DNA of 32,424 nucleotides. Source: Candidatus Fermentibacterota bacterium (lineage in GTDB: Bacteria; Fermentibacterota; Fermentibacteria; Fermentibacterales; JCC-6). The notes beneath the pieces were generated by a model. That model made no database searches and had not been told where the DNA came from. It saw nothing but the letters and a program-made list of their open reading frames with translations. The DNA is taken from contig WJMA01000002.1 of the NCBI GenBank assembly GCA_014728175.1, forward strand, positions 1 through 32,424. Reading direction: 5' to 3'. Below, one piece after another: positions 5,908 to 23,989 of the stretch. How positions within the stretch are numbered: position 1 is the stretch's first letter; every line of letters starts with the position of its first letter. The position numbers were made by a program, and so were the translations under genes.

Positions 5908-8316
5908 TCAGCCGTGACCTTCCACGGACACGGAGAGCTCCGGGCCCTCGGCCCACTCGATCCTCTCCGCCCGAGTGACGTTGAGCAGGTCCGGCTCGAA
6001 GTTCCGGTAACCTTCCAGGTCGTCCGCCGGGGCCTCGACCCTCAACGCGGTAAGGGGTGTGGCCATGCTCAGACTGTTCTCACTCTTGTATCTGCGTGCC
6101 TCCTCTACGATCTCCAGGCAGTCGTTGCCGTAGCGCAGAGCCCGCTCGAACATGTAATCGGTCTCCGGCCAGGGGCCTACGTGGATGCTGACATGCCCCT
6201 CGTAGTCGCGGAAAACGGCCTGGTACAGCTCCTCGGTAACGTGCACCAGCACCGGGGCCATCAGCCTCATCACCCCGTACAGGGCCCGGTAGAGAGCGTG
6301 CTGGGCCGCCGACCGCCCCCGGTGGTCGCCCTCGTCGTAAAGCCTGCCCTTGGCTATCTCCAGATAGTTGTCGCACAGATCGTGCCAGAAGAAGTCCTCG
6401 CTCTCCCGCATGCACACGGAGTACTCGTAGCGGTCGAACCCTTCGGTCGCGGCCCGCACCGTCTCGGTTAGCCTGCTCAGTATCCACCTGTCGAAGGGAG
6501 CCAGGTCCGGGTCGGCCTCCGGGTCGTAGCCGTCCAGCCGGGACGAGGCGAACCTGGTGGCGTTGAATAATTTGGTAACCAGCCTTCTGCCGTCGCCCAG
6601 GATGTCCTCGCTGAACATCACGTCGCTGCCCAGCTTGCTGCGGCAGGCCCAGTACCTCAGCTCGTCCGCGGAGTACTGCTGCAGGGCTACCAGGGGGTCT
6701 CCCGCCACGTTGCCCTTGCTCTTGGACATCTTCTCCCGGGAGGGGTTCAGGGCGTGACCGCTTATCATCAGGTCCCTCCAGGGCACCGATTCGGTATGCA
6801 GGTGGGACTTGGTCACCGTGTAGAAGGCCCAGGTGCGGATTATGTCGTGTGCCTGGGGGCGCATGGACATGGGTACGAAGCCCTCCCGCTGGTCCTTCTC
6901 CCCCCACCGGGCGTTGATGAGCGGGGTGAGCGAGCTGGTCATCCAGGTGTCCATCACGTCCGCCTCCGGCCGCAGCTCCTTCGAGCCGCAGGAGGGGCAT
7001 CCCCGGGGGGGCTGGCCGTCCAGAGGGTCCACCGGGAGGTCTTCCGCGCCGGCCAGAACCACCTGGTCGCACTGGTCGCAGAACCAGACGGGGAAGGGCA
7101 CCCCGAAGTACTTCTGCCTGCTTATGCACCAGTCCCACTTAAGGTTCTCTATCCAATGGGTAAGCCGTACCCGGAAGTGGGGCGGATACCAGTTGACCTC
7201 CCGGCCCCGGCGGATCAGCTCCTCCTTCATGTCCAGCACCCCGATGAACCATTGCCTGTTTACCAGGTACTCCAGGGGGGTGCCGCACCTCTCGTGCACG
7301 TTCACCGGGTGGGCTATCTCCTCGCCGCCCTCCAGGAGGCCTTCCTCCTCCAGCCTGCTCACCGTCTCCCTGCGGCCCTGCATGAGATCCATGCCCTCCA
7401 GGAAGCCGGCCTCGTCGTTCATCCTTCCGTCGCCGTCTATCACTATCCTCAGGTCCAGGTCGAACTCGCGCCACCAGTCGATGTCCGTGGTGTCGCCGAA
7501 GGTGCAGCACATCACGATCCCGCTGCCCTTCTCCATGTCCACCCGGGGGTCCTGGCGAATCTCCACCTCTCGGTCGAACAGGGGAACCAGGGCCCGCTCG
7601 CCCACCAGATGGCCGAACCTCTCGTCGGCCGGGTTGACGAATATCGACACGCAGGCCGGCAGCAGCTCGGGACGGGTGGTGGCTATGGGTATGCTGCCCG
7701 AGCCGTCGGCCAGGGGGAACAGCAGGTCGTAGAACCGGGAGGGCATCTCCCGGTCCTCCGTCTCGGCCTGGGCCACCGCGGTCATGCACTCCGGGCACCA
7801 CAGGGTAGGAGCCTTGGTGCGGTATATCCTTCCCTGATCGTAAAGAAGAAGAAAGGACCGCTGGGCCAGCCTTTGCACCCAGGGGTCTATGGTGGTGTAC
7901 AGGAGGCTCCAGTCGCAGCTGAAGCCCATGCGGGTCCACAGGTCGCGAAAGCTCTTCTCGGCCTCCTTGGTCATCTCCAGGCAGAGCTCCACGAACTCCC
8001 GCCGGGACATCTCCCGGGCCTTCACCCCCTTCTGCTGCTCGGTGAACCGCTCGCTGGGAAGGCCGTTGTCGTCGAAGCAGAACGGGTAGAAGACCTCCTC
8101 GCCCCTCATCCGGTGGTAACGGGCCACCGCCTCCGCCTGCACGTAGCTGAATACGTGGCCCATGTGTATCATGCCCGATACCGTGGGGGGAGGGGTGTCT
8201 ATGGTGTACAGGGGTTTGCCGGACCCGGGCCGGAATCGGAACACGTCCTGCTCCTCCCAGTAATTCTGCCAGCGGGTCTCGGATTGGTCAGCGTCGTAGC
8301 GCTTGGGAAGTGACAA
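5908..8316 (-). CDS. valS: Valyl-tRNA synthetase, short archaeal-like type
   Basis: 802 residues; charges tRNA-Val with valine in the cytoplasm. A class I synthetase with the HIGH-type motif HMGH (51-54) and KMSKS (529-533). The editing (CP1) domain carries ATTRPELLPACVSIFVNP. Two zinc-type knots are visible (WCPEC and the CDQC/CPSC pair). The segment DDNGLPSERF (82-91) replaces the GTDHAGIATQ of ordinary bacterial ValRS. Together with a length of about 800, instead of 880-950 with a C-terminal coiled coil, this marks the archaeal/rickettsial-type ValRS, so the lineage may have gained it by transfer. TTG 8316 is the likely start: GGAGAGG lies about 10 bases upstream and MSLPKRYDADQ matches a normal N-terminus. 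It has its own candidate promoter and is divergent from the giant signalling gene. Confidence 0.95.
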   Translation of the reverse strand: MSLPKRYDADQSETRWQNYWEEQDVFRFRPGSGKPLYTIDTPPPTVSGMIHMGHVFSYVQAEAVARYHRMRGEEVFYPFCFDDNGLPSERFTEQQKGVKAREMSRREFVELCLEMTKEAEKSFRDLWTRMGFSCDWSLLYTTIDPWVQRLAQRSFLLLYDQGRIYRTKAPTLWCPECMTAVAQAETEDREMPSRFYDLLFPLADGSGSIPIATTRPELLPACVSIFVNPADERFGHLVGERALVPLFDREVEIRQDPRVDMEKGSGIVMCCTFGDTTDIDWWREFDLDLRIVIDGDGRMNDEAGFLEGMDLMQGRRETVSRLEEEGLLEGGEEIAHPVNVHERCGTPLEYLVNRQWFIGVLDMKEELIRRGREVNWYPPHFRVRLTHWIENLKWDWCISRQKYFGVPFPVWFCDQCDQVVLAGAEDLPVDPLDGQPPRGCPSCGSKELRPEADVMDTWMTSSLTPLINARWGEKDQREGFVPMSMRPQAHDIIRTWAFYTVTKSHLHTESVPWRDLMISGHALNPSREKMSKSKGNVAGDPLVALQQYSADELRYWACRSKLGSDVMFSEDILGDGRRLVTKLFNATRFASSRLDGYDPEADPDLAPFDRWILSRLTETVRAATEGFDRYEYSVCMRESEDFFWHDLCDNYLEIAKGRLYDEGDHRGRSAAQHALYRALYGVMRLMAPVLVHVTEELYQAVFRDYEGHVSIHVGPWPETDYMFERALRYGNDCLEIVEEARRYKSENSLSMATPLTALRVEAPADDLEGYRNFEPDLLNVTRAERIEWAEGPELSVSVEGHG

Positions 8317-8491: not shown

Positions 8492-8519
8492 TAGCACTAT
8501 TGTGGAGGGGGTGAGAGCC

Positions 8520-11500
8520 TTGGAGAGGATCAACGACAGGTACGACGTAAGGACCAGCCTGGACGCGGCCGGCCCACGCCGGGACCTGGTGGTGGAGGAC
8601 TCCTGGGCCGACTCCCGCCTCAAGGTGCTCTCGGTCTGGACCGAAGACCCGGGAGCTTCCCTGTCCTTCGGACACTACCGCATACTGCGGTCGGTTCTGT
8701 GCCCCTCCCTTCTGGTACCGGACGAGTTCCACAGGATGTACTCGGTCGACGGCTCGCCCTACCAGGGGGACGGCTGGTGCTACACCCGGCCCTTCGTTGC
8801 CGGGGACGCCGCGACGGAGTCGCTGTCGTCCTTCTCGCCCTCGCTCCTTCTGCAGTACATCGAGACGGAGCTCTACCTGGAGCGGGTGGGAAGGCCCGGC
8901 GCCGCAACCGACCTGGGGCTGTGGGTGCTGAGCAGCGACGACCCCCCCGTGCTCAGTCTGACCGACCTCAGCCCCGACGGGGACCGCCCGCCTCTCTCCG
9001 AGGGCCTGCGGACCATCCTCGAAGGTTCGGGGGAAGACCTGGGGGAGCTCGCCGGTATCCTGGAGGATCCGGGGGCCGGCTCACCACGGCGGCTGGTGGC
9101 CCTGCTCAGCGAGCGGTTCGATACCGTACCCTCGGCCCGGAACCTGCTCTTCGTTCCTCCCAGATACTCCGGCTACCATTCCATTCTCAAAAAGGCCAAC
9201 GCCTTCCTTGGCCGTTGCCGGCGGGACGACCTCCCGGGGGTGGTGATTCTTGAGGGAACGATGCCCCACGGAGCGTTCGAGATACGGGAAGACCTGCTGT
9301 CCCGGACCGAGGTCCAGGGGTGGCTCTGCGTCCGGCTGGCCAGCATGCACGCCGAGGAGCTGGAGAGAGATATCGCGGTGGAGCTTCACCAGAAGTTGCC
9401 GGTTCTTCCCGGCGCCGACTCCCTTCCCGATCCGGAGACCGATCCCCTGGGATTCCTGGTGGAGCTTTCGAAGGTACAGAGCTGCTGCGTCTCGCTGAGC
9501 GTCGAGGAGAAGGGCCTTCGCCGCCTGGCGGAGTTCTCGGGTAAGCTTCTGGCCAGTGGCTGCGGAAGGGGAATGGCCTTCGTGGCCCGAACTCCCGAGC
9601 GGAGGACCGGAAGCGACGAGAAGCGGGAGTGGTGCGAGATCATACATCTGGCCGAGCGGGCCAGACCCGAGCCGGTGGAGTTCCTTTCGGCCGTGCTGGC
9701 CACCGATCAGGTTCCCGAGGGCCTGCTCATGACCCTGGACCGGTACCGGGTATTCGAGCCGACTGACATTCTTACCGTTATCAAATACATGCTGGACAAG
9801 AGGATATTGAGCAGAACCGAATCGGGGTGGAGCTTCAGCCTGAGCCGGGAGCGCATAGACGGCTTGACCGGGCACGGCAGGGTATCGCTGGAGCATGTTC
9901 TGAGGCTGGGGGAGCCGGACCGCTCCGTCCTGGCCCTCCTGATCCACACCGGGCGCTCCCTGGGCAGGCGGTTCATCTCCCATACGGTGGACCGGCCCGT
10001 GGAGGAAGTTTCGGAAGCGCTGGTGAGGCTGGCCGATGCCGGGCTGGCGCACTCCGGCATGGAGCGGGAGGTCACCGTATGGGCCGCCTCGGCCAAGGTG
10101 CCCAAGGAGTTCCTGAAGGTGGACGATTCGATGACCGCCAATTGGAACGACAGGCTGGTGGGGTATGCGCTGGTCCATCCCTCCCCGGCCCTCTCCGAGC
10201 TCCTGGCCGCCATTGACTGCTGCGGCGACGAGCCCAACGCCAGGGCCAACCTGGTGTACTCGGCCCTGCTCTTCTCCATGGAGGAGCTCAAGCCCGAGCT
10301 GACCGACAACCTTCTGGACACCATCGCCACCCTGCCCCGGGAGACGTTGTCCCCGTCGCAACGCAAGACCATCCTCTACTCCCTGAAGCCGAGGAAGCTC
10401 TCCGGCCTGAACACCCGCAGGACCAGGGACGTAATCGAGGAGTGGGTGGATAGCCTCCCCGACGCGGCGTCCAGGGCCCTGGCCCTAATCAGGCTGGCCG
10501 AGCTGGACATCCTCCACCGGGACCGGGCCGGCGCCAGAGCCAGGCTGGGCGAGGCCCTGAGATCCAGCCTGGAGGAATCGTACCAGGGCAGGGAGATATA
10601 CCTGGCCCTGTCCGCCATGGTGGAGGCCGTGGAGGGTGACGAGTCGGAGAAGGCGGTCAACCTGGTGGGCCAGGCACTTCAGAGATGCCCGGTGGACGTC
10701 CCTTCCGAAACCAGGGTGAGGATTTTCTCCTGCGGGGGGGCGGCGCTGGCCAACGCCGGAATGCAGGAGGACGCCGAGAAGGCGCTACAGGGCGCAGGCG
10801 CCCTGGTGAGCACCGCCGACCCCCGAACCAAGATGCTCTTCGAGTGGTGCCGGGGAAGGGTGCTGCTCAAGGGCAACCGGCTGGCCGAAGCCATCCAGGC
10901 CCTGGAGAGGGCCCTGCTTCTGGCCCGTAACTTGGACGACCATACGGCGGTTACCGAGATTCTCAGCCTTACCGTGTCCTGCCAGGAGAGGCTGCCCGGT
11001 TACACCCTCCGCAGCATGACCTCCGACATGGAGGAGGTCCGCAAGATGATGGCGGGAGGAATCGCCAACGCTCACAGCCTCTACGGGCTGGGGCGACTGG
11101 CCGGGCTGTACGCCCGAACCATGAGCTTCTCCAAGTCGTGGGAGGTGATCCGGGAGCTGCAGAGCGTTCCCAAAGGTCCCCTGTCATTCACCTGGATGCC
11201 CTACGTCGAATGGTTCGAGGCCTTCATGGACTACCAGCTGGGCCGCCCGGTGCCCGAGCCGGAGGGGGAGGAGCTTCTGGCCGGGACCCACGCTTTCCTG
11301 GGGGACCTTCGCCGGCGGAACGACCCGATCGACGCCGCCGGCCGGATCGCCGACTCCCTGAAGCGGCAGAAGAGTACCGACCTCGTCCCCCTGGGGATCT
11401 ACCTGGCTCTGGAGGCCGCGGCCAGGGGAAGGGGGGAGGCCGCCCGTACCCTGGCCTCGACGCTGACCGATACCTACAGGCCCAAGATGGCCGAGCTGAT

Positions 11501-13298
11501 ACCCGGATGGCGGCTGTGCATCAACGCCCTGCTGGCGCCACGGGCCTTCGAGACGGAGAAGGCGCTGGTATCCGGCCAGGTGATGGCCCGCCAGCTGGAC
11601 AGGCTGCTTCTGGTCTGGCTCATCCTCCAGGTCAGGCTGTCCCTGGACGTGGGGGAGATGCCGCAGCGGGAGGCCGAGATCAGGCTGATGCTGGAAGAGA
11701 TCGACCGCTACCTGGAAGACTCTGTGGACGAGGAGCTCGGAGCCTCCTTCCGCGGACAGGAGCACGTTCGGCTCCGCAGGGAGCAGCTGTTCTCCCTCAC
11801 CGGTGCTCTGGAGACCTCGGTCCCGGCGCTGAGGGACAGCCTGTTCGATTCCCTGGGCCTGGGCGAGAGCCTGGACCTGTCCTCCCTGCGGGGTCTTCCC
11901 CGGGAGACCACCCGGTCCTCGGGCGTAGGCTGGGGTCTGGAGGCCCTGCGCAGTTTCTCGAAGGCCAGCCGGGTAAGGGTAGTCAAGCTGGACGGGCAGG
12001 AGCTTTCCCTTCTGGAGTCGCGGGGTTACGGATCCAACGTCCCTCCGGACGACTCGGTCGTAGACGCAATGAGAAAGCTGGGGCCCAGGCCTCACAAGAT
12101 CGACAACTTCGGCCGTACTCCCTATGGCAGCAGGCAGATGCACATCGTTCCCCTGGGAAGGCAGCCCGTACCGCTGGGGATTCCCGAGCGCAGGAGCTCG
12201 GAGGACGAGCCGGCCAGGGGCAACTTCCTGATCCTGGAGATGGAGTCCCCCTTCGACCAGACCTCCGGGGTGCTCAACACCGTGTGCAGCTGTTTGATAA
12301 AGCAGATATCCGCCTCCATCGCCCTGCACGAGCTGGAGGAGCAGACCTACTACGACAGCATGACCGGCGCGGTCATACGGGCGGTATGGTTTTCCAAGCT
12401 GGGGGAGATGCTCAAGAGCGAGGTCACTCCCCGCAAGCCCCTGGGCATCCTGATGATAGACCTGGATTTCTTCAAGTCGGTGAACGACGGCTTCGGGCAC
12501 CGGGAGGGCGACCGGGTCCTGAAATCCGTGGTCAGCTCGGTCAAGGGGGCCCTCCGGCCCACCGACGTGGTGGGCAGGCTGGGCGGCGAGGAGTTCGGGG
12601 TCCTGCTGCCCACGGCCTCGGAGAAGAACGCCACCATGGTAGCCGAGCGGGTGAGGAAGAAGGTGGCGAAGGACGTGTTCAGACCCGACCGCCGGGCGGT
12701 GACGGTAAGCATAGGAGTGGCCGTCGCGCCCATCCACGGAGAGGCGCCCGAGCTTCTGGTCAGGCGGGCGGACGTGGCCCTGTACGAGAGCAAGAGCAGG
12801 GGCAGGAACAGAACCACCCTGTGGAAGAGATCCATGAACACCACGGTGATGGACCACGAGCCGGCCTCGCTCATGGATACCGGCGATCCCGGATGGGACC
12901 ACCTGCTAGGCCAGACCATCCTGCAGATACTGGGCACCAGGGAGATGTCCATGGAGCACCTGGCCGATCAGCTCCGAAACGCCCTTCGCTGCGAGTATCT
13001 GGAGCTGCTGACCGGCTCCGGGAAAACCACGGCGATCGGCATGCGGGAGGTGGAGGACTCGCTTCAGAGCGTGGAGCTGGGATCCCCGAAGGCGCCGAAG
13101 GAGAGCATGAGCTCGGATTGGAAGTATTACGCTCTGGGGTCGGAGCTCTCCGACGGCGGCAGGATCGTGGCGGCCTGGAGGGCGGAGGAGAACCGTCCCC
13201 GCAGCATGCCCACGCTGTTCGCGGCATTGGCCAATCTGGCCGATATGCTGTTGCTCTTCCGGGGATCCTCCGTCCCGGCGGAGGACGGCGGAGCATGA
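8520..13298 (+). CDS. Giant PknK-like signalling protein: pseudokinase, dead AAA ATPase, helical repeats, GAF-like, GGEEF diguanylate cyclase
   Basis: 1592 residues, no membrane segments. Residues 1-130 resemble a protein kinase N-lobe and hinge (INDRYDVRTSLD..., K35 in RLKVLSVW), but HxD and DFG are absent. At 230-470 lies an AAA_16/STAND-like ATPase region whose P-loop place reads EGTMPHGAFEI (245-255), with no GxxGxGKS; a winged-helix-like stretch follows. About 540-1010 is TPR-like helical repeats. About 1120-1270 is GAF-like. The GGDEF domain (about 1275-1435) has DSMTG, DLDFFKSVND, GHREGD, the active motif GGEEF (1355-1359; bases 12582-12596) and an inhibitory RPTD (1346-1349) at the right spacing. 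A last GAF-like region ends the chain. Predicted product: c-di-GMP, gated by protein-protein sensing. TTG 8520 is chosen for GGAGGGG about 9 bases upstream. A lipoprotein gene follows. Confidence 0.8.
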   Translation: MERINDRYDVRTSLDAAGPRRDLVVEDSWADSRLKVLSVWTEDPGASLSFGHYRILRSVLCPSLLVPDEFHRMYSVDGSPYQGDGWCYTRPFVAGDAATESLSSFSPSLLLQYIETELYLERVGRPGAATDLGLWVLSSDDPPVLSLTDLSPDGDRPPLSEGLRTILEGSGEDLGELAGILEDPGAGSPRRLVALLSERFDTVPSARNLLFVPPRYSGYHSILKKANAFLGRCRRDDLPGVVILEGTMPHGAFEIREDLLSRTEVQGWLCVRLASMHAEELERDIAVELHQKLPVLPGADSLPDPETDPLGFLVELSKVQSCCVSLSVEEKGLRRLAEFSGKLLASGCGRGMAFVARTPERRTGSDEKREWCEIIHLAERARPEPVEFLSAVLATDQVPEGLLMTLDRYRVFEPTDILTVIKYMLDKRILSRTESGWSFSLSRERIDGLTGHGRVSLEHVLRLGEPDRSVLALLIHTGRSLGRRFISHTVDRPVEEVSEALVRLADAGLAHSGMEREVTVWAASAKVPKEFLKVDDSMTANWNDRLVGYALVHPSPALSELLAAIDCCGDEPNARANLVYSALLFSMEELKPELTDNLLDTIATLPRETLSPSQRKTILYSLKPRKLSGLNTRRTRDVIEEWVDSLPDAASRALALIRLAELDILHRDRAGARARLGEALRSSLEESYQGREIYLALSAMVEAVEGDESEKAVNLVGQALQRCPVDVPSETRVRIFSCGGAALANAGMQEDAEKALQGAGALVSTADPRTKMLFEWCRGRVLLKGNRLAEAIQALERALLLARNLDDHTAVTEILSLTVSCQERLPGYTLRSMTSDMEEVRKMMAGGIANAHSLYGLGRLAGLYARTMSFSKSWEVIRELQSVPKGPLSFTWMPYVEWFEAFMDYQLGRPVPEPEGEELLAGTHAFLGDLRRRNDPIDAAGRIADSLKRQKSTDLVPLGIYLALEAAARGRGEAARTLASTLTDTYRPKMAELIPGWRLCINALLAPRAFETEKALVSGQVMARQLDRLLLVWLILQVRLSLDVGEMPQREAEIRLMLEEIDRYLEDSVDEELGASFRGQEHVRLRREQLFSLTGALETSVPALRDSLFDSLGLGESLDLSSLRGLPRETTRSSGVGWGLEALRSFSKASRVRVVKLDGQELSLLESRGYGSNVPPDDSVVDAMRKLGPRPHKIDNFGRTPYGSRQMHIVPLGRQPVPLGIPERRSSEDEPARGNFLILEMESPFDQTSGVLNTVCSCLIKQISASIALHELEEQTYYDSMTGAVIRAVWFSKLGEMLKSEVTPRKPLGILMIDLDFFKSVNDGFGHREGDRVLKSVVSSVKGALRPTDVVGRLGGEEFGVLLPTASEKNATMVAERVRKKVAKDVFRPDRRAVTVSIGVAVAPIHGEAPELLVRRADVALYESKSRGRNRTTLWKRSMNTTVMDHEPASLMDTGDPGWDHLLGQTILQILGTREMSMEHLADQLRNALRCEYLELLTGSGKTTAIGMREVEDSLQSVELGSPKAPKESMSSDWKYYALGSELSDGGRIVAAWRAEENRPRSMPTLFAALANLADMLLLFRGSSVPAEDGGA

Positions 13299-16940: not shown

Positions 16941-17326
16941 TCTCCCCCCCCCACCGCCCTGTCCACCAGATGGGCCACCCGCTCCTTCATCCGCGCATAC
17001 CGCCGGGGGTCGTCGTGGGTCCAGCCCAGCAGGTGCAGGTAGCCGTGGAACACCCTCTCCAGGAGCTCCTCCAACGGTGGGTAGAGCCTTCCGTTCACGT
17101 AGATGACTCCCTCCGGCCGTCCGTTGTCGGAAAGGTCGAAGGACAGGACGTCGGTCGGTCGGTCCTGGTGGCGGAAACGGGCGTTCAGAGCCCGCATGTA
17201 GCCGGGGTCGGTGAACACCAGCTCCACCCGGCCCTCCATGATGGGGGCCACCGCCCTCTCCACCTCCCGCTCGGAGAAGGCGGGATCACTCAGAAGAACG
17301 TTGATCAGGGGGTAGGCTTTTTCCAT
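16937..17326 (-). CDS. ybeY: Endoribonuclease YbeY (rRNA maturation)
   Basis: 129 residues. A zinc-dependent single-strand endoribonuclease needed for 16S rRNA 3'-end maturation and ribosome quality control. The three-His signature is complete: HGYLHLLGWTH (94-104), in the usual HGxLHLxGYDH form with Trp-Thr in place of Tyr-Asp. The upstream motif RPTDVLSF (56-63) is also present. It is at the short end of the family. ATG 17326 lies 41 bases inside the end of pgpH, with AAGGA 8 bases before it; no good start lies after the pgpH stop, so the overlap looks real. Order phoH-pgpH-ybeY is conserved in many bacteria. Confidence 0.93.
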   Translation of the reverse strand: MEKAYPLINVLLSDPAFSEREVERAVAPIMEGRVELVFTDPGYMRALNARFRHQDRPTDVLSFDLSDNGRPEGVIYVNGRLYPPLEELLERVFHGYLHLLGWTHDDPRRYARMKERVAHLVDRAVGGGE

Positions 17327-19346
17327 GCGGGTAATCCTTCACCCTCTCGTGATACCTTCCCCGCAGCACCTGGGCAAAGGTCTCCTCTATCTTCCTCAGG
17401 TTGGCCCGGGTAAGGCTGCAGTCGTCCAGCTGCCCGTCGGCCTCCCTCTCCGCCACGATCCGGCGGATGGTCGCTATCAGGGTCTCCGAGCTGGTGTCGC
17501 TGAGCGCCTTGGTGGCCGACTCCACCGAATCGGCCAGCATGACCAGGGCCGCTTCCCTGCTCTGGGGCTTGGGCCCGGGGTACCTGAAAGCGTCTATGTT
17601 GACCGCGTCGGGGGCCGGAGCCTGGCTGCGGGCCTTCTCGTAGAAGTACTTGGAGGCGGTGGTTCCGTGGCTCTGCTTGATTATGTCCACCACCGCGCTG
17701 GGAACCCGGTGCCTGCGGGCCAGCTCCACTCCCTTCTGCACGTGGGAGATGATCTTCTTGGCGCTCTCGTAGGGGTCCATTTCGTCGTGGGGATTGGTGA
17801 CCTCGCCCTCCCCCTCGCTCTGATTCTCTATGAAGTAGCCGGGGTCGTCCAGCTTGCCGATGTCGTGGAAGAGCCCTCCGGCCTGGGCCAGGCTGATGTC
17901 GGCCTCTATGGCCTCCGCCGCCTCGCTGGCCAGATCGGCCACCGCCTGGGAGTGCTGCCAGGAACCCATCGCCTCGTCGCTCAGGCGCTCCAGCAGCGGA
18001 TGGTGCCTGCTGGCCGCCTCGTCTATGGCCAGCACCGTGTAGACGCCGAAAATCTTTTCGAACGTGAACAACAGGGACATGGCCGCACCCACTCCTATGA
18101 TAGGGGAGAACACGATCTCCAGCACCGAGACCCACCACCTGCGGGCCACCAGGCCCACGTCCAGGAGCACCACGGACAGATAGGCCAGCAACCCGCCCAG
18201 CGCGGCGTACACTATGCTCAACGGTACGCTGCTTCGTTTTCTGAGGTCCCATCCCGCCCTGGCGGCCAGGCTGCCGGAGACGAAGGTCACCAGAGCAATG
18301 GAGAAGGGGTACATCTGGGTGGGGGCCAGCATCAGAGCGAAGACCATCACCAGGAAGTAGGCGTCCCGACGGTTGAAGAATATGGCGGTCAGAACGGCTC
18401 CAAAGCTGACCAGGGAGGCCAGGGAGGCGTCGTAGAGGTTGCGCAGAAGCATCCAGGAAACCCCGGTGCCCCCCAGGCTTACAAGCCATATGGTACCCAG
18501 CAGGAGGAACCTGCGGGAGCTTCTCCAGGCCCCGGGCATCTGGTCGTGAACGTATAGGATGGCCAGGGCCAGAAGGCCCAGCACCAGAAGGGCCCTCCCG
18601 GTGGTGTGTATCACCCCGGTGTTGGACTGGATGGCGGTCTCCGACCTGCGGAGGGCGGATATGTACTGTTTGGTCCTGCTGGTGACCACCCCGCCGGGCC
18701 CCACCAGAGTATCGCCGGCGTGTATGACCGTGTCCAGCATGCTTATGCGGGAAGTGACCGAGCTGACCGCCCTGTTCCGGGCTTCGTTGTCTATCACCGC
18801 GTTGGGCCGCAGCTCCACCGGAAGCAGTTCCACCGCGATCGAGGGCATCCCTCCGTCCCTCAGGATCATCTCCAGGGCCGACTTGACCTCTTGTAGCTCG
18901 TTGAGCTCGAACAGCCCGGTCTCGGTCCGCAGGGTGTCCCGGATCACCACCGCCTTGTCCCCCTGGTAGGTATCCCTCACCCTGTCCAGGTCGAACACGC
19001 CCCTCTGGTAGACGCCCTCCACCCGGTCTATCACCCCTTCGGTGAAGGCGGTGTCCCGGGTGGCCTCCATCAGCTTGCTGCGTAGCGTGGAGCGTAGCAC
19101 CGGCCAGACGTTCTCGTCTATGCGGAGATATATGGGCACCCCGGCCGCCACCGAGGAGCGGGCCCTCATGTACTCGCTGTCGGACAGCATCACCTCGAAA
19201 TCGACGGGAGCCACCAGCCCCGAACTTACCGTCTGCCCCACCTGCACGTCGAAATCGACCACCGATCGCTCCGTGGACAGCAGGACGTAGTACAGAGCGG
19301 GGAACATCACCAGGATCAGAATCCCCAGGAACAGGTTCCTGCTCAT
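17286..19346 (-). CDS. pgpH: 7TM-HD phosphohydrolase, PgpH-type cyclic di-AMP phosphodiesterase
   Basis: 686 residues. The order is: one N-terminal membrane helix (about 5-24); a large extracytoplasmic 7TMR-HDED domain (about 25-245); a block of seven or so membrane helices (about 250-440); and a cytoplasmic HD domain. The HD domain shows GSWQHSQAVADLASEAAEAI, then GLFHDIGK with His494-Asp495, and later KQSHGT. In Listeria and Bacillus this family (PgpH/YqfF) hydrolyses c-di-AMP to pApA. ATG 19346 overlaps the phoH stop by 4 bases, with GGAGGAG close upstream. The last 41 bases overlap ybeY. Family membership is firm; the substrate in this organism is inferred, as no c-di-AMP cyclase gene lies in the window. 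Confidence 0.92.
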   Translation of the reverse strand: MSRNLFLGILILVMFPALYYVLLSTERSVVDFDVQVGQTVSSGLVAPVDFEVMLSDSEYMRARSSVAAGVPIYLRIDENVWPVLRSTLRSKLMEATRDTAFTEGVIDRVEGVYQRGVFDLDRVRDTYQGDKAVVIRDTLRTETGLFELNELQEVKSALEMILRDGGMPSIAVELLPVELRPNAVIDNEARNRAVSSVTSRISMLDTVIHAGDTLVGPGGVVTSRTKQYISALRRSETAIQSNTGVIHTTGRALLVLGLLALAILYVHDQMPGAWRSSRRFLLLGTIWLVSLGGTGVSWMLLRNLYDASLASLVSFGAVLTAIFFNRRDAYFLVMVFALMLAPTQMYPFSIALVTFVSGSLAARAGWDLRKRSSVPLSIVYAALGGLLAYLSVVLLDVGLVARRWWVSVLEIVFSPIIGVGAAMSLLFTFEKIFGVYTVLAIDEAASRHHPLLERLSDEAMGSWQHSQAVADLASEAAEAIEADISLAQAGGLFHDIGKLDDPGYFIENQSEGEGEVTNPHDEMDPYESAKKIISHVQKGVELARRHRVPSAVVDIIKQSHGTTASKYFYEKARSQAPAPDAVNIDAFRYPGPKPQSREAALVMLADSVESATKALSDTSSETLIATIRRIVAEREADGQLDDCSLTRANLRKIEETFAQVLRGRYHERVKDYPHGKSLPPDQRSSE

Positions 19347-21521: not shown

Positions 21522-21908
21522 TCACCCTTTTCTTCGGCGTTTTCCCACCCACCATCGAAGCAGCAGCACCGAGATCAGGAGACCGGCTACGTCGGCCAGC
21601 ATGTCCTGCACCGAGCAGTCCCTGCCCGGTACGAATGACTGGTGGATCTCGTCGCTCAAGGCGTAAACCGAGCCGGCCGCCAGCATGAAGCCGGTTCCCC
21701 ACCAGGGCCGCAGCCCCCGGTTCGCGTAAAGGGCCACCCCCAGCAGGAAGAACTCCGCGAAATGAAGCGCCTTGTCCTGCCAGGGAAACAGGGGGGGCAC
21801 CAGTTCGATCTGGGGCTGATGGCTGAAGTAGAATATGACCCCGGCCACCGCGGCCAGGAACAGTATCCCGGCCGTTCTGCGCAGCGCGGTCCTACCCTTG
21901 GCCGTCAT
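21522..21908 (-). CDS. VanZ-like membrane protein
   Basis: 128 residues. Helices at about 10-30, 42-62 and 68-85, plus a C-terminal one, surround the VanZ signature SDEIHQSFVPGRDCSVQDML followed by ADVAG. VanZ lowers teicoplanin binding in enterococci; the wider family has no settled function. ATG 21908 overlaps the stop of the upstream GGDEF-like gene (ATGA). A start further upstream would add residues that run through that gene's end and is less likely. Together they form a two-gene transcript. The basic tail (GKRRRKG) should be cytoplasmic. Confidence 0.88.
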   Translation of the reverse strand: MTAKGRTALRRTAGILFLAAVAGVIFYFSHQPQIELVPPLFPWQDKALHFAEFFLLGVALYANRGLRPWWGTGFMLAAGSVYALSDEIHQSFVPGRDCSVQDMLADVAGLLISVLLLRWWVGKRRRKG

Positions 21909-23908
21909 TCCTGCAGCGACACCGCTGGAAGCTCGGAGACCACGCACCTGCCGGCGCCCACGCTGCGGGCCTGCTCCAGAAGATCCCTGGCCTGGCTTCT
22001 GAGCCTGGGTACCCGCCTGTCGGTATGGGTGGCGCAGGCCCCGATGGAAACGGTCAGGCGGACCTCGGTCCCGTCGAACTGCAGCGGCCGGTCGGCGAAA
22101 GAGGAGGAGACGGACTCGGCGATGGCCTCCACCGCCGCCCCGTCGGCCCCCTGGATCAGCACGGAGAAACTGTCGGCCCCGGTCCGGGCGATGTAGGCGT
22201 CGGCTCCGAGCAGGCTCCTCAGGCGGGAGGTGGTCGCCCGCAGGATGCCGTCACCCTTCTCGAACCCCAGCTTCCTGTTCATCTCCCCGAAGCCGTCTAT
22301 GTCCACCACCATCACCGCCACCGACCGGCCGAAGCGCCGGACGTCGGTAATCGACTCCTCGAGCCTCTCCTCGAAATGGGTTATCCTGGGCAGGGCGGTG
22401 ACCCCGTCGGTCCCGGTGGTCTTCCGGCGCCTCTCCTCCAGCACCAGCCGCTCCATGGCCAGCGACAGTAGCGCGGCACATCCCCGCAGGACGTGCTCGT
22501 GGGCCGGTCCGAACCCCTCGCTGCTCTCGCTCTCCATCAGCATCACTCCCACCACCCGGTCGCGCACCAGGAGCGGCGCGGCGGCGCAGCTGCCTATCTC
22601 CCGTTCCGGATCGTCCTCCTCCGAAAGGGACCTGACCCCCTTGTCTCCCAGAGTCATCCTGTTCCTGCGCATGGGCTTTTCGTATCTCATGACCCATCCG
22701 GCCACCCCGCCGGTTGTATCGAACACCCTCCAGCTCCGGCCCTGGGCGAAGTGGCCCATCGACTCGTACACCCTCATCCGGGCACCCTCGTCCTCCCGCA
22801 GGGCCACGGTCACCGTGCGGTCGGGGAACAGCCCGTGCAGGCCCATAACCGACCTGTGCACGGCCTTCTGCAGGTTGGATTCCCTGGCCGTGCCGCTGAG
22901 CACCCGGTCGAACCAGTCCGGGCTGAGACCGGCCGCCTCGGGGGAGGGACCCTCCGTGCTGCTGGCCACCGCGGCCTCGGAGGCGTCCCTCAAATCCTCC
23001 AGCACTTCCATGTCGAACGAGGAGCCGTCCCTGTCCAGGAGGAACACCGCCTCCAGTACTCCTGCCACCTTTACCGGGGCCACCGCGTAATTGGTTGGTA
23101 CGATGGTGGACCGGTACCAGGGCGGGGCGCCTTCGGGCTCGGGCCGGTAGCCGTTAATCAGCGTCGCCCCGTCCGCCGCCCGGGCCAGAAGGGGATGGGT
23201 GGTCCTCACCAGGGCCCTTCCGGCGATCCTTTCCCTTCCCCCTATGTAATCGTCCAGCCGCATCAGGTTATCGTCGTGCCTGCAGAAAAGGCAGCTGGCC
23301 TGGGCGCCGCTGTGCCGGTGCAGCAGCGGAAGCATTCCCCTGGCGGTCTCCATCAGCAGGCTCTGCTTTCGCCGCGGCGATGGTTGAGAGGTCTCCTCCA
23401 ACCCGGGGCGGGTCTTTCTTTCCCTGTCCCTCTCGCTCTCGGAGATCATCTCCGCGAAGATTCCGAAAACCGCGGGAGGAGCGAAGGCGGCCAAGGCCCG
23501 GGGAAGGTTGTCGAACAGAACCTCCAGGATGGTTCCCTGCTCGTTGAGAAGCAGGGAGAGGGCCTCCACCAGGCCTACGGCCAGCCCGAACTCCGCCGCC
23601 GAGCTCCCCACGGAGGGCAGCGCGAACCAGGCCAGCAGGAAGAAGTAGACCGGGTACAGGTAGCCGTCGCTTCCCCCGGTCAGTTGTACCGCGGCGATAA
23701 CCATCAGGGTCATCCAGGTGGAGAGAAGCCTGTCCGTCCGCCTTCCGCTTCGCCAGGAGGTTACGGCTGCGAACAGACACAGGAATAGGATCCCGGCCGC
23801 CACCAGGTAGTAAAGGGGGTCCGCGGACGGCCGCCGGCCGTAACCCAGGGCCAGAGCGAGCATTCCCACCACGGCCGCCACGTATCCCAATACTCTCAGA
23901 GTTCTCAA
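21905..23908 (-). CDS. Membrane GAF protein with inactive GGDEF domain (GADSF)
   Basis: 667 residues from TTG 23908. That start has AGGGAGG 4 bases upstream; the frame is open to TTG 23989, but that codon forms part of the -35 box. About six membrane helices span residues 5-154. Then come a GAF-like region with a CLFC pair (about 190-340), a second GAF (about 370-490) and a GGDEF fold (about 505-660). The fold is recognisable from VMVVDIDGFGEMNRKLGFEKGDG, but the active motif reads GADSF (577-581; bases 22166-22180) instead of GG(D/E)EF, and no RxxD inhibitory site is at the right spacing. Cyclase activity is therefore unlikely; it may bind GTP or c-di-GMP, or act as a partner. Divergent from rho. 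Confidence 0.85.
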   Translation of the reverse strand: MRTLRVLGYVAAVVGMLALALGYGRRPSADPLYYLVAAGILFLCLFAAVTSWRSGRRTDRLLSTWMTLMVIAAVQLTGGSDGYLYPVYFFLLAWFALPSVGSSAAEFGLAVGLVEALSLLLNEQGTILEVLFDNLPRALAAFAPPAVFGIFAEMISESERDRERKTRPGLEETSQPSPRRKQSLLMETARGMLPLLHRHSGAQASCLFCRHDDNLMRLDDYIGGRERIAGRALVRTTHPLLARAADGATLINGYRPEPEGAPPWYRSTIVPTNYAVAPVKVAGVLEAVFLLDRDGSSFDMEVLEDLRDASEAAVASSTEGPSPEAAGLSPDWFDRVLSGTARESNLQKAVHRSVMGLHGLFPDRTVTVALREDEGARMRVYESMGHFAQGRSWRVFDTTGGVAGWVMRYEKPMRRNRMTLGDKGVRSLSEEDDPEREIGSCAAAPLLVRDRVVGVMLMESESSEGFGPAHEHVLRGCAALLSLAMERLVLEERRRKTTGTDGVTALPRITHFEERLEESITDVRRFGRSVAVMVVDIDGFGEMNRKLGFEKGDGILRATTSRLRSLLGADAYIARTGADSFSVLIQGADGAAVEAIAESVSSSFADRPLQFDGTEVRLTVSIGACATHTDRRVPRLRSQARDLLEQARSVGAGRCVVSELPAVSLQE

Positions 23909-23959
23909 ACCGGCCTCCCTGAATCGGCCCACCGAATCTGCGGCGAGAGGGACTCCCGA

Positions 23960-23989
23960 ATTATGGGTGGGCCGGCCCCCGTTTGACAA
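23960..23989 (-). promoter_or_regulatory. Promoter of the inactive-GGDEF/VanZ transcript
   Basis: On the minus strand TTGTCA (23984-23989), an 18-base spacer and CATAAT (23960-23965), about 45 bases before TTG 23908. The TTG start at 23989 would fall inside this -35 box, which is why the shorter start is preferred. Confidence 0.5.

Follow-up and report, generated by a model that had tools for sequence, protein, structure and literature searches.

The window, by which we mean the whole stretch of 32,424 nucleotides analysed here, makes up an entire contig of a draft genome of Candidatus Fermentibacterota (2.6 Mb), and carries on its forward strand, from 8520 to 13298, the gene of a protein of 1592 residues whose end and product length are those of the original prediction made from the letters of this DNA. 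The longest frame begins at GTG 8310, a start that we rejected in favour of TTG 8520 because a strong ribosome-binding site (GGAGGGGGTGAG, 8504 to 8515, forward strand) lies just upstream and because the orthologues begin at the same residue. The divergent neighbour on the reverse strand is a valS-like tRNA synthetase gene (5908 to 8316), which serves as the locus marker in the orthologues. Plain Pfam and NCBIfam scans of the 1592 residues return nothing beyond GGDEF and weak traces of TPR, the kinase and STAND homologies described below being missed by Pfam as a result of the decay of the sequences. The complete order is pseudokinase, dead STAND domain, winged helix or arm, TPR, linker domain, GGDEF and C-terminal domain, all encoded on the forward strand.

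The output of the protein is a diguanylate cyclase domain (12327 to 12830), matched by Pfam GGDEF with an E-value of 1.8e-38 and by TIGR00254 with 5.5e-42. The active-site signature GGEEF (12582 to 12596) is preceded, at five residues, by the RxxD sequence RPTD (12555 to 12566), the spacing of a canonical inhibitory (I) site, and a motif table finds GG(D/E)EF, the metal Asp and the substrate residues all present, so that the intact GGEEF and its RPTD inhibitory site predicted earlier are upheld. GGDEF catalysis requires a dimer, and product inhibition through RxxD is established for this family. The domain ahead of the cyclase (residues 1126-1262, 11895 to 12305) is 37-40% conserved in the orthologues and is GAF-like by its position only; neither Pfam nor profile searches give a GAF match in the 1592 residues, and the GAF label it had received is not confirmed. 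The cyclase is followed by a conserved domain of about 150 residues (residues 1440-1592, 12837 to 13295) with the motif TGDPGWD, which the original prediction did not contain. With about a dozen GGDEF loci, six HD_5 (HD-GYP-type) matches, one EAL and two PilZ in the genome, the other elements of a c-di-GMP system are present, and the host possesses phosphodiesterases and PilZ receptors with which to use the messenger. The reverse strand of the window also encodes a second cyclase (21905 to 23989), composed of an MgtC-like N-terminal stretch, GAF and GGDEF, and a 7TMR-HDED/HD protein (17286 to 19346) adjoining PhoH and RecO, which is presumably of the kind called PgpH elsewhere, a c-di-AMP phosphodiesterase.

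At the other end of the chain, residues 1-212 (8520 to 9155) are, by fold prediction and profile matches, a pseudokinase made of the N-lobe and half of the C-lobe of a protein kinase. The AF2 model of residues 1-216, built with eight homologues (pLDDT 76.5, pTM 0.73), shows the N-lobe, alpha-C, alpha-E and two strands after the catalytic loop, and the best 50 Foldseek matches listed for this predicted model are all protein kinases, PknB being the first (E 2.7e-7, probability 1.00), which places it in the fold of the eukaryotic-like Ser/Thr kinase superfamily. A four-sequence profile of residues 1-177 gave 13 weak matches against the PDB sequences, 11 of them to kinases, all of these in a single register spanning the catalytic loop and DFG. 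The catalytic motifs of the superfamily have left the DFG Asp as their sole remnant: in the alignments of the orthologues and of the wider family, residues 1-212 have no Gly-loop, beta3 Lys, HxD, Asn or activation segment, and D149, the DFG Asp, is invariant in all four orthologues. The reported absence of HxD is borne out by these alignments; that of DFG holds for the motif but not for the column of its Asp. Only about 50 residues separate D149 from the kinase C-terminal motif, and the activation segment and APE are therefore gone. That the kinase would be active in an atypical way, with non-canonical residues taking over the catalysis, might be argued from this invariant Asp and from the relatives that keep HGD..N..D in the alignment; we hold it to be hardly credible, since all the other elements are absent and the orthologues share no conserved substitute for them. 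A plasmid search returned, as its sole match, a distant cyanobacterial kinase.

The following residues 213-375 (9156 to 9644) are predicted to adopt a STAND/AAA+-like nucleotide-binding fold without Walker A. The model of residues 1-444, which is weaker than that of residues 1-216 (mean pLDDT 55.6), finds its best Foldseek matches in the plant NLR Sr35 and in ORC/Cdc6 ATPases (E 7e-6, probability 1.00; the STAND match is given without coordinates), and would include a STAND/AAA+ core with a winged helix, so that on this low-confidence model the nucleotide-binding domain and winged helix precede the sensor repeats as in STAND proteins. The P-loop place is occupied by EGTMPHGAFEI (9252 to 9284), as had been read before, and the letters of the orthologues, GGAAAASRAVV, GRSSQLGSAVL and GGAPAPAGMLI, are equally wrong for a Walker A. 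The original prediction could have failed on its kinase and AAA homologies; fold and profile searches found both, and both are real. An atypical nucleotide binding without the canonical motif may still occur. The stretch that follows (residues 376-545, 9645 to 10154), missing from the original prediction, is winged-helix- or arm-like by its secondary structure and by weak GntR/MarR matches in the orthologues, and the helical repeat region (residues 546-1125, 10155 to 11894) gives weak matches to TPR and TPR_MalT.

Among 42 genomes of the phylum searched for relatives, three have full-length forms, namely G036, G040 and G037, whose gene is broken up by contig ends, and the sister genus g2 and a single g3 genome have shorter ones; none was found in g4, g5 and g8. 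Wherever the contig extends far enough, valS divergently adjoins the long and the short forms, which makes the latter true orthologues minus residues 1-467, a part absent from the valS-locus gene in g2 and g3. In the alignment, the full-length genes of the three other Fermentibacterota genera are likewise dead, both in the kinase and at the P-loop. The motif loss is thus common to the valS-linked genes and the window protein is not one degenerate copy, the outcome on which the original prediction had left its reading to depend. The identity between orthologues is 61-67% in GGDEF, 42-44% in the C-terminal domain, 34-38% in TPR, 27-34% in the pseudokinase and 19-23% in the STAND region, which is the least conserved part and may therefore be a mere spacer. 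The N-terminal domains could be regarded as decaying remnants without a role, only TPR, linker and GGDEF being of importance, with a deletion to follow as in the sister genus, and the absence of residues 1-467 at the same locus in g2 and g3 and the poor conservation of the STAND region both point in this direction. We consider this unlikely, since neutral remnants would be expected to show stops or frameshifts, whereas across four genera in three families the whole N-terminal part is still an open frame that aligns at about 20-34%, and it can be aligned too with a family present in other phyla.

The fate of the cyclase differs between the genera. Its full signature is intact in the window protein, G036, G037 and G040, and it is their most conserved part, whereas GG(D/E)EF is missing from all 14 g2 copies having the region (KEDLF, REDLF, RGDLF and others). 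All of these copies keep R-P-x-D and the G-R after it unchanged, and the GGDEF domain evolves with a dN/dS of about 0.2, similar to that of its neighbours. The g2 orthologue is thus probably a c-di-GMP receptor, as far as can be judged from its sequence: by its dead GGEEF and conserved RxxD it resembles the I-site receptors with degenerate GGDEF, of which PssE of Listeria has been tested (PMC4125290) and from which the window protein differs by its intact GGEEF. These same facts could be extended to the window protein itself, which would then be mainly a receptor whose RPTD binds the messenger and signals through the scaffold, synthesis being secondary; with a cyclase signature that is intact and the best conserved part in the window genome and in G036, G037 and G040, we think this very improbable.

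The same layout exists in at least two other phyla. A first scan of the named genomes for relatives gave no match; searches outside the phylum, first with a profile of residues 1-444 and next with one of the kinase part, brought up frames 1464-1773 residues long, which belong to a lineage of three genomes, with 4-6 copies each, and to a lineage of four genomes, with one copy each. The 19 relatives read carry GGDEF at or near the C-terminus, many of them with a C-terminal extension of about 150 residues, and no P-loop is present in these 19 when aligned; the sequences GLHASGKT and GLNASGKT (G155b, G292d), picked up by a Walker A regular expression, were rejected as an intact P-loop, as they align at the Walker B strand. 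Independent alignments of the Fermentibacterota and of the other phyla match over residues 1-892 with a P-value of 1.8e-18, against 0.54-0.99 for reversed and shuffled controls. The Pfam Pkinase match of the relatives covers only positions 1 to about 143-158 of 263, and the half kinase is therefore the norm of the family, which is marked in most members by an I/V-D-G hairpin insert between beta4 and beta5 (SVDG, 8742 to 8753, in the window protein). Members such as L101, L102, L104, L107, L152, L155 and L160 share with the window protein the order of the parts, the lack of a P-loop, TPR and GGDEF, in most cases the IDG hairpin and often the C-terminal domain; the window protein unites, as they do, a half kinase, a STAND domain without P-loop, TPR and GGDEF in one chain.

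In their half kinase, most relatives in other phyla keep the Gly-loop, Lys, HxD..N and DFx. Only G155a, G292b and G385d are as dead in the kinase as the window protein, HxD being lost too, and this clade carries MGEEF or MGDEF. As the two dead-kinase groups lie apart in the kinase tree, whose branches are long and support moderate, two separate losses of the kinase are suggested. In the GGDEF tree, whose backbone is weak, the window clade does not group with the same-layout cyclases of the other phyla, and the cyclase could have been exchanged. In L103, L104 and L162, from another phylum, a fully dead kinase is combined with an MGEEF or MGDEF cyclase, whose core departs at the usual K and N/D positions, and with a C-terminal domain.

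Among known systems, a protein of 1826 residues described in 2005 in Clostridium thermocellum (PMC1262709) unites, like the window protein, an N-terminal kinase, repeats and a C-terminal GGDEF in one giant chain, but was described as a Ser/Thr kinase, in contrast to the window protein with its dead kinase and absent P-loop. The literature search found no description of the pseudokinase, P-loop-less form, which is thus a new variant of a kinase-TPR-GGDEF arrangement known since 2005. The PknK-like layout proposed earlier stands for the order kinase, ATPase and TPR; its GAF is unconfirmed, and PknK is an analogue and not the nearest relative. Indeed, receptors of the PknK/HstK type (kinase-STAND-TPR, with or without GAF and histidine kinase; L054 and L105 are examples) have an intact Walker A, a complete kinase match and an output other than GGDEF, for instance a histidine kinase or a sigma-54 activator, while the window protein has neither the active kinase and NTPase nor the HTH or histidine-kinase output of that class. 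Cyanobacteria commonly have dual kinases that combine GAF with a histidine kinase (PMC2176072). The regulators of the MalT type share the NTPase-winged helix-TPR core and use ADP/ATP exchange, for which the window protein lacks the P-loop. In ordinary STAND receptors, a closed ADP-bound form is converted into multimers by the inducer bound to the repeats and by ATP loading, and STAND proteins normally form multimeric hubs (PMC4381067).

The model we propose, to which we give a probability of roughly 0.7, is that of a cytoplasmic receptor in which the pseudokinase and pseudo-STAND domains would act as a sensing and assembly scaffold controlling a product-inhibited cyclase. The loss of phosphotransfer and of nucleotide switching is well supported by the sequences, the orthologues being dead as well and no aligned relative having a P-loop, and the motif loss is common to the orthologues; the folds themselves are those of predicted models. 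The control of c-di-GMP is suggested by an intact GGEEF domain conserved at 61-67%, against 19-34% in the dead domains, and ligand control, oligomerisation and catalytic activity would be properties of the same protein. The ancestor would be a kinase-STAND-TPR-GGDEF protein that lost the STAND P-loop first; the window lineage would later have lost its whole kinase chemistry as well and retained, as a folded scaffold, the helical repeats and both dead domains. Since the nucleotide switch is missing, the repeats and the dead domains most likely respond by a change of shape alone: a ligand or a partner protein, and not ATP turnover, would alter the shape or the oligomeric state of the scaffold, thereby pairing two GGDEF domains and leading to c-di-GMP synthesis, the output of which would be capped by RPTD through product inhibition.

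More tentatively, and with the odds rather against it, the giant receptor-cyclases of the different phyla may together form one family with a STAND core devoid of a nucleotide switch, in which at least two losses of kinase chemistry took place and one genus turned its cyclase into a c-di-GMP receptor. If so, a natural gradation leading from enzyme to scaffold would exist at one valS-linked locus. STAND proteins are thought to act by ADP/ATP exchange, and bacterial pseudokinases have, to our knowledge, been little studied; a family that retains the two folds in several phyla but neither of their chemistries would show that no more than the scaffold is needed to carry a signal, and the series of half kinase with HxD, dead kinase, no kinase and dead cyclase with a kept I site would make the essential part directly testable.

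Related scaffolds are present in other proteins. In the same genome, the protein C7 (L057, about 1300 residues) begins with the same N-terminal domain, with HGDLRPDN, followed by GGDEF; in profile alignments its kinase matches that of the window protein with a P-value of 7.6e-5 and ordinary kinases with 4.7e-6. In G018, G010, G009 and G027, the relatives of C7 share the scaffold but lack GGDEF; these pseudokinase proteins (L066, L067, L068, L165, L166 and L167) measure 1123-1162 residues and show HGN, HGA or nothing at the catalytic loop. Proteins of the HstK type (L053 and L054, in G010 and G009) are built as kinase-AAA-TPR-GAF-PAS, with HKN in the kinase loop and an intact Walker A, L054 carrying a histidine kinase. 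In the window genome, two adjoining proteins (contig C21, L058:4361-9315) each start with GGDEF, which in the first is followed by AAA_16, with the intact Walker A GEPGVGKS, and TPR, an order reverse to that of the window protein. Another likely pseudokinase of this genome, judged by its motifs, is a kinase-PEGA-TonB_C protein (contig C43, L055:3351-6152) in which HGQ and EFG replace HRD and DFG.
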